Assembly: GCF_014243345.1 (NCBI RefSeq)
Contig: NZ_JACLZF010000002.1
Coordinates: 558,001 to 622,000, forward strand
Direction of reading: 5' to 3'
From: Robiginitalea sp. SC105
GTDB lineage: Bacteria; Bacteroidota; Bacteroidia; Flavobacteriales; Flavobacteriaceae
DNA length: 64,000 nucleotides
Shown here: positions 51,564 through 55,810 of the stretch, piece by piece
Position numbering within the stretch: position 1 is the stretch's first letter
Layout: each line of letters begins with the position of its first letter
Program-made: the position numbers and the translations under genes
Notes under the pieces: model-generated
Databases searched by the model: none
Told to the model about the DNA's origin: nothing
What the model saw: the letters and a program-made list of their open reading frames with translations, nothing else

Positions 51564-51863
51564 TCAAAGCAGCGGTTTGATGGCTTTCAGGAGCGCATCC
51601 CTGGGCAGGACCCCCGACTGGCGCCAGAGAACCTTTCCCTTCTTGAACAGCACCATGGTTGGCACCCCGCGCACCTGGTACCGGCCTGCAAGCGCCTGGT
51701 GCTGGTCCACATCGATTTTGATTACTTTCAGGCGGTCGCCCAGGGCGTCCTTGACCTCCTTCAGTATGGGGGAAAGCATTTTGCAGGGCCCGCACCAGTC
51801 TGCATAAAAATCGACCAACACGGGTGTTTCGCTGCGGATGATTTCCGAAAATGAAGCCTTCAT
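51564..51863 (-). CDS. trxA: Thioredoxin
   Basis: 99 residues. VLVDFYADWCGPCKMLSPIL is the active site with CGPC; the cis-Pro is in GVPTMVLFKKG. Start at ATG 51863 (MKASFSEIIRSE); a longer in-frame start at 51920 gives a 19-residue extension with no counterpart in the family. A cytosolic disulfide reductase. Confidence 0.93.
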   Translation of the reverse strand: MKASFSEIIRSETPVLVDFYADWCGPCKMLSPILKEVKDALGDRLKVIKIDVDQHQALAGRYQVRGVPTMVLFKKGKVLWRQSGVLPRDALLKAIKPLL

Positions 51864-51974
51864 TGCTTTGCGATTTTCAAGTGAAATTACAAAACTTCCG
51901 TGCGAACTTTGCTGACCCATATCATATTTACCGGACGGCCGATGGCGTATTTTTATGTACTTTAAAGGCAGATC

Positions 51975-52820
51975 ATGAGTTTACGCATCGCCATTCCTAC
52001 CGATTTTTCACGCAATGCCGAAAAGGCGGCCCGTTTTGTGCTGGAGCTCTTCCGGGAGGAATCCCTTTGCGTTTTCCTGGTACACACCTACACGCCTTCC
52101 TTCCTCAGGGCCGAATACCTCATTCACAGCCCCGGGCAAATTGGCCTGGGCGATTCCTACAAGCAACGGGTCCTGGAGCGGTTGGCGAAATTCAGGGATT
52201 CCCTGAAACCCGTTACCGGGCCGGACTGTACCTTCTATACCCATGCTGCATTCAATACGCTGGATGTTGAACTGAACGAAATGGTCGCAAAAGAGGACCT
52301 CGACCTTATTGCCATGGGTACCCAGGGGGCCACCGGGGCCAGGGAAGTCCTTTTCGGTACCCACGCCGTGCAGGTACTCCACCGCGCGGATTGCCCGGTG
52401 CTCGTAATACCAGAAAATGCCGATGTGGAAAGCATACGGGACGTCCTGTTCCCTACGGATTACGCTGCCGATTACGACAGGCTTCCCCTTGCGGCCCTCG
52501 ACCGGATACTCAGGCGCCCGGGGACGCGCTTGCACGCCCTGCACGCCTATACGGAACTGGACGGGACCCCCGAGCGGGAAAAAGCCCGGGAACAGTTGCA
52601 ATCGCGCTTCAAAGACCGGTTGGACCTTACCGAAACCCGGGAGCAGAGCCTGGTGGAGGCCATCAACGGTTTTGCCGGCAGGCAACCCGTACAACTTTTG
52701 GTGATGGTGCGCAACCGGCATACGGCCCTTGAAAACCTGCTGGTCCGCCCTGTGGTGGACCGCATAGGCCTGCATACGCGTATTCCCTTCCTTGTTTTGC
52801 CGCCCGCAGAAGGGGACTAG
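51975..52820 (+). CDS. Universal stress protein with two UspA domains
   Basis: 281 residues. Domain 1 (about 1-145) starts LRIAIPTDFSRNAEKAARF and holds MGTQGATGAREVLFG, the G-x2-G-x9-G ATP-binding loop, then DCPVLVIPENAD. Domain 2 (about 150-281) starts RDVLFPTDYAADYDRL; its loop, RNRHTALENLLVRPV, has lost the glycines, so only one domain is likely to bind ATP. First gene of the operon with the nuclease and metallohydrolase, 22 bases ahead. Stress or starvation function is inferred from the family. Confidence 0.9.
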   Translation: MSLRIAIPTDFSRNAEKAARFVLELFREESLCVFLVHTYTPSFLRAEYLIHSPGQIGLGDSYKQRVLERLAKFRDSLKPVTGPDCTFYTHAAFNTLDVELNEMVAKEDLDLIAMGTQGATGAREVLFGTHAVQVLHRADCPVLVIPENADVESIRDVLFPTDYAADYDRLPLAALDRILRRPGTRLHALHAYTELDGTPEREKAREQLQSRFKDRLDLTETREQSLVEAINGFAGRQPVQLLVMVRNRHTALENLLVRPVVDRIGLHTRIPFLVLPPAEGD

Positions 52821-52842
52821 CGGTCCCTAAAAGACACATCCT

Positions 52843-53697
52843 ATGGCAAGAACGCGTACCAGAATCAAGAAAACATCCGGTGAAGAGGTTCCGTTTTCCG
52901 AGAAAAAACTACGGCGTTCCCTCTCCCGCAGCGGGGCGGACCCGGCAACCATCGATGAGATTGTCCGTACCCTTTCTGCTGAACTCTACACGGGCATGAC
53001 CACCCGGGAAATCTACAACAGGGCTTTTGCGCTGTTAAAGGGTCACGAAAAATCCTTCGCTGCGCGGTACAAGCTGAAAAAGGCCATTTACGAACTGGGG
53101 CCCACCGGGTTCCCCTTTGAGAAATTCGTGAGTTCGCTCCTGAACTATTCAGGCTACCATACCGTGACCAATCAGGTTTACCAGGGGGCCTGTGTGAAAC
53201 ATGAAATTGACATTGTAGCCCGCAACGGCGGTTCCCTGACGCTGATCGAATGCAAATTCCATTCAGAGGAAGGCAGGAATTGCACGGTCCGCGTCCCGCT
53301 CTACATCAACTCCAGGTACCGGGACGTGGCGGCCGGAAAAACCGTATCTGCCTCCCCGGAGCTGCGGTTGAAACCTGCCTGGGTCGTCACCAACACCCGA
53401 TTTACCTCGGATGCGCTGGCCTATGGCAAATGTGCAGGAATGTATTTGCTGAGCTGGAACCACCCCAGGGGGAATGGCCTCAAAGACCGGATTGACCGGC
53501 ACCGGCTTTATCCGATAACGGTAAGCGTCCTGCTGAGCGCAAGGGAAAAGGAATTCTTATTGAAGCGGGAAGTTGTCCTGGGCCGGCAATTGCTGGAGGC
53601 TCCCTATCTGCTGGACCACCTGGGCGTTTCCCAAAGCCGGAAATCCCGGATCCTGGACGAATTTGAGGTCCTTTGCAACCACAAGAAAAAACCATGA
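52843..53697 (+). CDS. ATP-cone plus Mrr-type nuclease
   Basis: 284 residues. An ATP-cone (about 5-85) with TSGEEVPFSEKKLRRSL and the helical TTREIYNRAFALL, the regulatory domain of ribonucleotide reductases and NrdR that binds ATP or dATP. After a joining segment comes a PD-(D/E)xK nuclease of the Mrr type: HEIDIVARNGG (D123) and LIECKFH (E136, K138). Arg-rich ends suggest nucleic acid binding. The fusion implies that DNA or RNA cleavage is gated by the nucleotide pool. A C-terminal helical domain (about 215-284) is unassigned. Coupled to the next gene by ATGA. Confidence 0.82.
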   Translation: MARTRTRIKKTSGEEVPFSEKKLRRSLSRSGADPATIDEIVRTLSAELYTGMTTREIYNRAFALLKGHEKSFAARYKLKKAIYELGPTGFPFEKFVSSLLNYSGYHTVTNQVYQGACVKHEIDIVARNGGSLTLIECKFHSEEGRNCTVRVPLYINSRYRDVAAGKTVSASPELRLKPAWVVTNTRFTSDALAYGKCAGMYLLSWNHPRGNGLKDRIDRHRLYPITVSVLLSAREKEFLLKREVVLGRQLLEAPYLLDHLGVSQSRKSRILDEFEVLCNHKKKP

Positions 53698-55058
53698 AGG
53701 CAAAATTACAGTTCTGGGGTGCGGCCGGATGCGTTACCGGGTCCAAATACCTGTTGGAATACGACGGGCACAAGGTGCTGGTGGATTGCGGGATGTTCCA
53801 GGGGCTCAAGGCTCTCCGCCTGCTCAACCGGGCAACCTGGCCGTCCGATCCGGCGGGGATTCATGCGGTAGTGCTCACCCATGGGCACCTGGATCACGTC
53901 GGGTTGTTGCCACGCCTGGTAAGGGACGGTTTCAGAGGGGAGATCTACGGGACGACCCCCACCCTGGCAATTGCCCGGATCGTGCTGGAAGACAGTGCCA
54001 AAATACAGGTAGAGGAAGCCGAAAGGGCCCGGGAGGAAGGGTACAGCCGGCATGCGGAGCCCGAGCCCCTCTATACCCCTGAGGATGTGGAGGCCTGCCT
54101 GCGGCTATTCGTGCAAACGGATAAGGACCGGTGGTATTCCCTGCCCCCAAAAGCATGGCGGTTCCGGATGCGGTATAACGGGCATATCCTGGGAGCCTGT
54201 TTTGTAGAAATGGAGTTGGGGGCAACCCGTGCGGTATTCTCCGGCGACATTGGAAGGCCGGCTGACCCGCTCCTGTTCCCGCCGGAACGCCCCCGGCAGG
54301 CAGAGGTGTTGCTGCTGGAGAGCACCTATGGCAACCGACTCCACCCCGGCCTTGATATGGAGGAAGCGCTTGCATCGGAAATCAACGGGACCATTGCAGA
54401 CCGCGGCACCTGTATCATCCCCTGTTTTGCAGTGGAGCGGCTGCAGGTGGTCATGCTCTTGTTGCTAAACCTGCGCCGGCGCAACCGGATTCCCCGCATA
54501 CAGGTTTATGTAGACAGCCCGATGGGTAGCAATGTACTGGAATTGTTCGGCCGTTTCCCCGAATGGCACAAACTGTCCCCAAAGGATTTTCATGCGATGA
54601 AGGCCGAATTCACGTTGATCGAAAGCTACCGGGATACCTGGAATGCGATCGATGACAGTCGTCCCAAGGTGGTCATTGCCGGTAGCGGGATGCTTAGCGG
54701 GGGAAGGGTGCTGGCCTACCTGAGCCAGTTGCTGGACCGTACCGAAACGCGTATCCTCCTGATGGGGTACCAGGCAGAAGGCACCCGGGGGCGCAACCTG
54801 CTGGACGGGGCCCATGAATTGAAAATATTTGGAAAGTACGTGCCGGTTAAAGCAATGGTCCGCCATTATGAGTCCCTTTCCGCCCATGCGGACCAATCCG
54901 AAATCCTCTGGTGGATTTCCGAACTCGAAAAAGCCCCGGACCGCGTCTTTCTGATCCATGGGGAACCCACTGCCCGTGATGCACTCCGGGTAAAACTCCG
55001 GGATACCCGGGGCTGGATTGCGGAGCTTCCGGAAATGAACGAAGAGATTATTCTCTGA
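53694..55058 (+). CDS. MBL-fold metallohydrolase with beta-CASP and RMMBL domains
   Basis: 454 residues. Motif 2 THGHLDHVG at 62-70 gives the HxHxDH zinc ligands, YNGHILGACFVEMELG contains the following His and FSGDIGRPADP the Asp. The beta-CASP region (about 205-330) has ESTYGNRLHPG and VIAGSGMLSGGRVLAYL, and the end ALSAHADQSEILWW and VFLIHGEPTARDAL are the RMMBL His motifs. This is the CPSF73/RNase J-like architecture that cuts RNA. Start at 53694 overlaps the nuclease stop. Confidence 0.92.
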   Translation: MKAKLQFWGAAGCVTGSKYLLEYDGHKVLVDCGMFQGLKALRLLNRATWPSDPAGIHAVVLTHGHLDHVGLLPRLVRDGFRGEIYGTTPTLAIARIVLEDSAKIQVEEAERAREEGYSRHAEPEPLYTPEDVEACLRLFVQTDKDRWYSLPPKAWRFRMRYNGHILGACFVEMELGATRAVFSGDIGRPADPLLFPPERPRQAEVLLLESTYGNRLHPGLDMEEALASEINGTIADRGTCIIPCFAVERLQVVMLLLLNLRRRNRIPRIQVYVDSPMGSNVLELFGRFPEWHKLSPKDFHAMKAEFTLIESYRDTWNAIDDSRPKVVIAGSGMLSGGRVLAYLSQLLDRTETRILLMGYQAEGTRGRNLLDGAHELKIFGKYVPVKAMVRHYESLSAHADQSEILWWISELEKAPDRVFLIHGEPTARDALRVKLRDTRGWIAELPEMNEEIIL

Positions 55059-55162: not shown

Positions 55163-55810
55163 ATGAAAACCTGGATATTCCCCCTGCTGATCGGTACCCT
55201 GCTTTTACAGGGTTGCAGTTCCGTCCAACTGGAGGCGGAGTACAAAGACCCGGATACCGTCTTGTTCCATTCCAACAAACTGCTGATTGTAGGAATGACT
55301 GCGGACCGGGAAGTCCGGCAGGAATTTGAAACCCGGTTACAGGAGGTATTCACCGATGCCGGGATTGAAACCTTCCGGAGTATAGACCTGTTCGACGTGG
55401 CTTTTACCGAAACCGAGCAGTCGGAAGAAGAGCTGGACCGGGTAGAGGAACAATTGCTCGACAAGGACTTTGACGCCATCCTGTTTACCAAGGTAGTCGG
55501 ATCGGAAATGCACACATCCCTGGTGCGCAAATTGCGGGAAATCGGTAATACCTACGAAGGTTTCGGCGAAGACTATGTACTCCACCAGGGGATCTACACC
55601 GGGCAGGCAGACTACGACGGGGCAACAGACTACCATACGGAAACCTCCCTCTATTGCATCTGTGTGGGCAAGGAGCGCAGCCTGATCTGGCGAAGTAATG
55701 TGCTGATCTCCAACCCGCGGAACCCGGATCGTGCGATCCGGGATTATATCCGCCTGATCCGGGGCGAATTGAAGAAAAACCACCTCCTGCTGGGCACGGA
55801 TATCTTCTGA
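55163..55810 (+). CDS. Lipoprotein of unknown function
   Basis: 215 residues with a lipoprotein signal, LLLQGCSSVQLEAE. The mature protein is alpha/beta: KLLIVGMTADREVRQEFETR, then an acidic helix (TETEQSEEELDRVEEQLL), then SLIWRSNVLISNP near the end. The first part is like outer-membrane-associated lipoproteins with a DUF4136-like fold, but no clear match. It lies 104 bases after the metallohydrolase on the same strand and may belong to that operon. Confidence 0.65.
   Translation: MKTWIFPLLIGTLLLQGCSSVQLEAEYKDPDTVLFHSNKLLIVGMTADREVRQEFETRLQEVFTDAGIETFRSIDLFDVAFTETEQSEEELDRVEEQLLDKDFDAILFTKVVGSEMHTSLVRKLREIGNTYEGFGEDYVLHQGIYTGQADYDGATDYHTETSLYCICVGKERSLIWRSNVLISNPRNPDRAIRDYIRLIRGELKKNHLLLGTDIF

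Follow-up and report, generated by a model that had tools for sequence, protein, structure and literature searches.

An apparently undescribed gene pair for a predicted ATP-cone nuclease and a beta-CASP metallohydrolase behind a CRP/FNR-type promoter site in Robiginitalea

In the genome of Robiginitalea sp. SC105 (Flavobacteriaceae), we identified a real, conserved and apparently undescribed gene pair that codes for a fusion of an ATP-cone with a predicted PD-(D/E)XK nuclease (hereafter FUS) and for a metallohydrolase with beta-CASP and RMMBL domains. The window, that is, the whole stretch of 64,000 nucleotides under analysis (RefSeq assembly GCF_014243345.1, contig NZ_JACLZF010000002.1, positions 558,001 to 622,000 of the forward strand), carries the pair behind a gene for a two-domain universal stress protein (USP), the three genes lying in series on the forward strand at positions 51975-55058; an earlier sequence-only reading had named the same domains, and both the coordinates and the Pfam matches agree with it. 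Each of the domains is already known, and the novelty is in their combination and in the promoter setting. No system with this combination had been known to that reading, in agreement with our limited literature search, in which the ATP-cone nuclease fusion was not named in the publications found, with the proviso that the original description of the ATP-cone (Aravind and others 2000) may mention such proteins; automatic annotation labels them 'ATP cone domain-containing protein'. We tentatively interpret the locus as a CRP/FNR-controlled energy-stress operon in which a nucleotide-sensing nuclease and an RNase turn over nucleic acid, a reading whose chances we put a little short of even.

By gene order and phylogeny, FUS and beta-CASP are a conserved two-gene unit with a shared history. 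We searched genomes of the window's phylum together with plasmids, phages and viral contigs, and ran one genome scan; this gave a set of 78 loci, to which the phylum sample contributed 53 and the relatives 24, with the window as the last one (its own row was left out of both samples, as were ATP-cone-only second matches in genomes G151, G250 and G286 from the former and G182, already in the set, from the latter; two pieces of G223 were treated as one region). A beta-CASP gene lies directly 3' of FUS on the same strand at 49/78 loci and within two genes of it at 50/78 (32/53 in the phylum sample, 17/24 among the relatives, and the window), and FUS is followed by beta-CASP at 79 of the 80 named loci, which are the best 80 of at least 590 confirmed FUS stretches in the genome scan and are biased to near kin. 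In the window, the beta-CASP ATG at 53694 runs into the FUS stop codon TGA at 53695-53697 (ATGA, 53694-53697), so the 4-base overlap claimed from the sequence alone is real; the list of open reading frames (ORFs) also holds a longer beta-CASP ORF with a TTG start at 53673, and a -4 overlap was seen in 12 of the 49 pairs (start codons script-chosen). Nor is the arrangement a peculiarity of one lineage, an outcome that the sequence-only reading had allowed for: at least five family groups of the phylum samples (f1, f2, f4, f23 and f53) have the pair, and it is also carried by plasmids from Pontibacter and from the Chlamydiota member Criblamydia.

A search with the beta-CASP protein at E 1e-60 matched 189 of the 296 phylum genomes, and all 31 genomes with matches of at least 430 bits (33 matches) hold FUS. 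On a quick maximum likelihood tree of 77 beta-CASP proteins, one branch (SH-aLRT 99) parts 52 FUS-linked rows, including one from a Chlamydiota plasmid, from 25 free rows, which were hand-picked (20 regions below the linked group in the phylum search and five plasmids); none of 500 label shuffles gave a count as low as this single linked/free change. Protein distances of FUS and beta-CASP are correlated (Pearson 0.83, not reached in any of 1000 permutations), a correlation that is also expected from shared species descent. Stronger evidence comes from a matching-kin check, which covered the three genomes that carry two linked copies: in each copy FUS and beta-CASP share the same nearest loci, so the two genes moved as pairs; L070, L067, L125 and L127 represent one island type among these nearest loci. 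A chance neighbourhood is ruled out by the 49/78 loci, the 79/80 named loci and the single-branch tree.

Of the two neighbours whose conservation had been put up for checking, beta-CASP is therefore steady, directly behind FUS at 49/78 loci, whereas USP is not a constant member. It lies up to three genes upstream of FUS at 25/78 loci (9/53 in the phylum sample, 15/24 among the relatives, and the window), 24 of which also have beta-CASP, and at 62 of the 80 named loci (the best 80 of at least 590). Judged by these gene orders, USP is a variable, family-level partner, found mostly in the window's own family and outside the FUS/beta-CASP core.

The ATP-cone in FUS was matched by Pfam PF03477 at 29.4 bits, above the curated cut-off of 25.8. 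Five positions that we take to contact the nucleotide are largely kept across the set: K10 (76/78), G13 (75/78), K22 (77/78), T54 (73/78) and Y76 (78/78). In the nuclease part, D123, E136 and K138, which the sequence-only reading had reported as intact together with HGHLDH of the beta-CASP protein, are present in the window as is that motif, and the three residues, in the order D...ExK, are invariant in 78/78 sequences. Among solved structures, a profile of 31 FUS proteins matched AF1548 (1Y88; E 2.7e-47, profile positions 90-277), a predicted restriction-type endonuclease of Archaeoglobus whose predicted catalytic residues are likewise D, E and K according to the accessible part of its description (PMC1821046); NrdR was matched weakly (E 0.22 and above). 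An AlphaFold model of FUS, for which the window protein was combined with 41 relatives, was confident (mean pLDDT 89.4, pTM 0.84) and was compared with solved structures by VIA-align. Residues 86-281 of the model align with 1Y88 (Z 22.4, 3.4 Å, 183 residues), that is, over nearly the whole chain of AF1548, whose solved chain of 199 residues, unlike FUS, is without an ATP-cone. The N-terminal part aligns with the ATP-cones of NrdR (9gex_D, Z 11.2, 2.0 Å, 79 residues; ATP/dATP-bound 9fvr_C, Z 10.9; 9fxk_A, Z 10.4) and of Leeuwenhoekiella NrdB (5olk_A, Z 9.8), sharing one fold with the cones of NrdR and ribonucleotide reductase (RNR) at Z 9-12 over 71-79 residues. Several unrelated-looking nucleases also score near Z 10 with the FUS model, so nuclease matches at this level mean the same superfamily fold and no more. 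The predicted structure thus supports an ATP-cone fold for the N-terminus and an AF1548 fold for the nuclease and C-terminal part. The cone may bind ATP or dATP, and the predicted nuclease may cleave nucleic acid, with RNA and DNA both compatible with its sequence. In known proteins, the ATP-cone controls a repressor (NrdR) or a reductase (RNR), whereas in FUS it is joined to a predicted nuclease.

The third protein scores above the Pfam cut-offs for Lactamase_B, Beta-Casp and RMMBL, and carries HxHxDH, in the form HGHLDH, together with the later metal motifs; HxHxDH is present in 49 of 50 FUS-linked beta-CASP proteins. Its nearest solved relative is the RNase TTHA0252 (E 6.7e-67), which shares RMMBL and HxHxDH with it. 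RNA degradation by TTHA0252 has been reported, as have effects of its disruption on many mRNAs, so by analogy the window protein is most likely an RNase; the accessible part of that report describes TTHA0252 without an ATP-cone nuclease partner (PMC4229858). NCBIfam gave no equivalog above cut-off. Two specific identities for the beta-CASP protein were rejected on their NCBIfam scores, namely Cas14 of type VII CRISPR (346.6 bits, cut-off 800) and aCPSF1 (237.2 bits, cut-off 580.2).

The operon is preceded by a CRP/FNR-type palindrome. A spaced-palindrome scan of 147 upstream regions, with no motif preset, placed TGATA-N2-TATCA and TGAT-N4-ATCA at the top, and TGA-N6-TCA was found in 89 of the regions (5 to 12 in five shuffles). 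The window site, TGACCCATATCA, is centred 56 nucleotides upstream of the USP start and is common to a divergent thioredoxin gene. With near-copies removed and the site counted at 45-75 nucleotides before the start, TGA-N6-TCA precedes 55/63 USP-led FUS operons (shuffled mean 0.49, maximum 3 in 100), 33/39 other USP-led operons, 6/9 Hsp20-led operons and 20/24 thioredoxin-led operons, in the last case mostly as the same intergenic site as that of USP, and only 1/24 operons of three other neighbour families. Such conservation at a fixed distance supports a CRP/FNR-controlled stress regulon. The USP itself has the motif G-2x-G-9x-G-T at residue 115 in domain 1, the motif was not found in domain 2, and the nearest solved structure is 3loq (E 1.2e-8).

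Response regulators that combine REC, cNMP-binding and HTH_Crp domains, as read in one cluster member, form a cluster present at 17/78 loci (neighbour families are rough Louvain clusters, and cluster 4, the kinases, is mixed), and such a regulator lies up to six genes upstream in 16 of the 80 named loci (the best 80 of at least 590). The window's own genome codes for one such protein (41% identical), and its stress locus L239 (G000:C2:80001-98000) gathers within 18 kilobases the regulator, a PAS/GAF histidine kinase, Hsp20, three USPs, Pta and AckA. In L239, TGA-N6-TCA stands about 58 nucleotides before one USP, 56 before a reverse-strand USP and 69 before Hsp20 (script-chosen starts). The REC-cNMP-HTH_Crp protein might be the binder of TGA-N6-TCA and is our candidate for that role.

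The gene order, the pair's shared history, the invariant catalytic residues, the promoter site and, in the model, the ATP-cone and AF1548 folds are read from the sequence. That FUS binds nucleotides, how it is gated and in which direction, what the substrate and the cue are, and how the operon benefits the cell, we infer as follows. In the window's family, the FUS/beta-CASP unit would have been put, with USPs, under a stress regulator of the CRP/FNR type. When this regulator fires, the operon would be made, low oxygen or low energy being the likely cue by analogy. The ATP-cone would then read the adenine-nucleotide state, either ATP versus dATP or ATP versus its loss, and switch the nuclease, probably via a change in oligomer state. 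In RNR and NrdR, the response of the cone to ATP/dATP works through oligomer state, as described in the accessible parts of two reports (PMC4390871, PMC12051234); by analogy, the switch in FUS is most likely the same one acting on a nuclease, and the sequence is compatible with a trigger by either ATP loss or dATP. Alongside FUS, the beta-CASP enzyme would degrade RNA, so that transcripts or other nucleic acid might be removed and nucleotides returned while the cell cannot grow.

Several observations weigh against this scheme. The Mrr_cat match (21.7 bits, cut-off 21) is marginal by sequence alone, and PD-(D/E)XK enzymes often cut DNA. TGA-N6-TCA is found before only 6/38 FUS-led operons and 2/41 FUS operons led by other genes; since USP-led operons are rich in the site and FUS-led ones poor, it belongs to USP-type promoters, and FUS comes under it where it stands behind USP. 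The site also precedes 77 of 597 unassigned control operons against a shuffled mean of 5.45, so these controls are not clean. Additionally, 18 of the 49 FUS-carrying genomes have no beta-CASP match of at least 430 bits, and wider-family beta-CASP proteins occur without FUS; thus, neither gene needs the other. The nucleotide-gated stress or dormancy module proposed from the sequence alone is thus partly supported: stress control gains weight from the conserved site before USP-led operons and from stress-type neighbours, and the ATP-cone fold from the model comparison, whereas USP is a variable member and FUS-led operons mostly lack the site. Gating by nucleotides and a part in shut-down or dormancy would be further features of such a module.

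The low-oxygen or low-energy cue is suggested by the wider neighbourhood and by an operon of Bradyrhizobium diazoefficiens. Genes of the thymidine phosphorylase family and for phosphoribosyl pyrophosphate (PRPP) synthase lie 3' of FUS/beta-CASP at four chromosomal loci (L070, L078, L125 and L127) and on both plasmids, that of Criblamydia adding phosphoketolase, glycogen phosphorylase and acetate kinase. The B. diazoefficiens operon bll3115-bll3117 similarly combines genes for an MBL-fold protein, PRPP synthase and thymidine phosphorylase, responds to microoxia and has a FixK2 motif of the TGA-N6-TCA type, so that a gene for an MBL-fold protein belongs to a low-oxygen regulon; unlike at the FUS loci, no FUS gene is mentioned in the accessible parts of these sources, and the likeness is one of description, not of compared bll3115 sequence (PMC6515984, PMC9104804). 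On Pseudomonadota plasmids, related beta-CASP genes without FUS lie in some cases near thymidine phosphorylase and PRPP synthase genes; one such plasmid has USPs and Fnr there, and another has neither. A bolder version, which we consider distinctly unlikely, would make FUS/beta-CASP both gate and shredder in a mobile module for energy rescue: as ATP falls, FUS and the RNase would open up nucleic acid of the cell itself, and where thymidine/AMP phosphorylase, PRPP synthase, phosphoketolase and acetate kinase adjoin the pair, these enzymes would turn the sugar phosphate into ATP. In the window's own genome, no close island-type thymidine/AMP phosphorylase was found (sole match 23%, residues 105-267, E 1.9e-7), so in its present form the idea finds no support in this organism; the genome does carry Pta and AckA beside USPs.

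A role in defence, with FUS as the effector of abortive infection or of anti-plasmid immunity, set off by a phage-induced shift in the nucleotide pool, seems very improbable to us. ATP/dATP sensing could allow a response to a phage-altered pool, and the nuclease domain aligns at Z about 10 with the CRISPR ancillary nucleases Cdn1, Card1 and Can2, which, going by PDB titles, we take to be CARF nucleases sensing cyclic oligoadenylates; like FUS, they join a ligand-binding domain to a related nuclease fold, but their sensor is CARF and that of FUS is an ATP-cone. PADLOC, a library of described systems only, gave no strong match for any of the three proteins, but weak ones to CARF-PDDEXK models (best E 0.002). 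Moreover, the genes around FUS belong to stress responses and metabolism, and their order showed no defence-island pattern to the eye (PADLOC covered the three proteins), and the promoter site is common to USP and Hsp20 genes; that phages and viral contigs yielded no FUS relative says little either way.

General RNA turnover, in which beta-CASP would be a housekeeping RNase, FUS a loose passenger and the USP promoter a case of stationary-phase bundling, is unlikely. It would agree with the occurrence of wider beta-CASP homologues in 189/296 genomes and with the window's own genome giving one strong match when searched with beta-CASP, but on the tree the FUS-linked proteins stand apart as a clade of their own, with a single change of state, and the second copies arose by joint movement of both genes, which is not expected of a passenger. 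DNA repair or recombination, in which the ATP-cone would tie cutting by a nuclease like AF1548 to the supply of dNTPs after stress, with the RNase as a separate partner, is likewise unlikely in our view, if slightly less so. The nuclease half does align with EndoMS (5gke, Z 10.2) and a Pyrococcus repair endonuclease (2vld, Z 10.9), and the ATP-cones of RNR and NrdR read ATP/dATP in the accessible parts of the reports cited for them (PMC4390871, PMC12051234); however, the closest steady partner of FUS is an RNase-type beta-CASP, and no repair gene was seen among the annotated recurrent neighbour clusters, which are a minority of all clusters.

FUS was found in 49/296 phylum genomes (24/140 genera), in 24/60 relatives and in 9/10 genomes of the window's genus. 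In one genome of that genus, G298, neither FUS nor beta-CASP was found, and a USP-like ORF (41% identity), possibly a paralogue, adjoins a PLD gene. Two of 72,556 plasmids carry FUS, those of Pontibacter and Criblamydia; there was no match among 50,697 phage records, and 24 pattern matches in viral contigs included no FUS relative. The titles of the named loci (the best 80 of at least 590) are all flavobacterial or Bacteroidetes-like. At L071, L076 and L122, FUS copies without beta-CASP have ABC-exporter-type genes as neighbours, and the genomes concerned carry another FUS copy as well; at L204 a second FUS-like ORF follows right behind the beta-CASP gene on the opposite strand. The lipoprotein-like family (cluster c7) that flanks the pair in the window is often the next gene 3' of beta-CASP (15/78 loci). 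The features of the locus are collected in Table 1.

Table 1. Features of the FUS/beta-CASP locus and its flanks, in window coordinates (aa, amino acids)
Feature	Position	Strand	Basis or remark
Two-domain universal stress protein (USP)	51975..52820	+	ORF of 281 aa; Pfam Usp, two stretches
ATP-cone/PD-(D/E)XK nuclease fusion (FUS)	52843..53697	+	ORF of 284 aa; Pfam, predicted model
ATP-cone domain of FUS, residues 7-76	52861..53070	+	Pfam; alignment of the model with NrdR ATP-cones, Z 10-12
Mrr_cat nuclease domain of FUS (predicted), residues 89-197	53107..53433	+	Pfam; invariant catalytic residues
Predicted catalytic codons of FUS	D123 53209-53211; E136 53248-53250; K138 53254-53256	+	Invariant, 78/78
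beta-CASP/RMMBL metallohydrolase	53694..55058	+	454 aa counted from ATG; Pfam
HGHLDH motif of beta-CASP, residues 63-68	53880..53897	+	
CRP/FNR-type palindrome TGA-N6-TCA, TGACCCATATCA	51913..51924	strandless	Candidate regulator site
Divergent thioredoxin, accessory neighbour	51564..51920	-	Start probably inner Met; kept in many related loci
Lipoprotein-like ORF	55163..55810	+	Directly downstream of beta-CASP gene; no confident Pfam match

To conclude, the pair looks like an undescribed link between the energy state of the cell and nucleic-acid breakdown, and FUS, as a single enzyme of 284 amino acids, is a directly testable protein. If the energy-stress interpretation is true, adenine-nucleotide sensing by ATP-cones would extend from RNR and its repressor to the destruction of nucleic acids, and the large USP stress clusters found in Flavobacteriaceae, with roles that we judge to be poorly known, would in part gain a concrete job.

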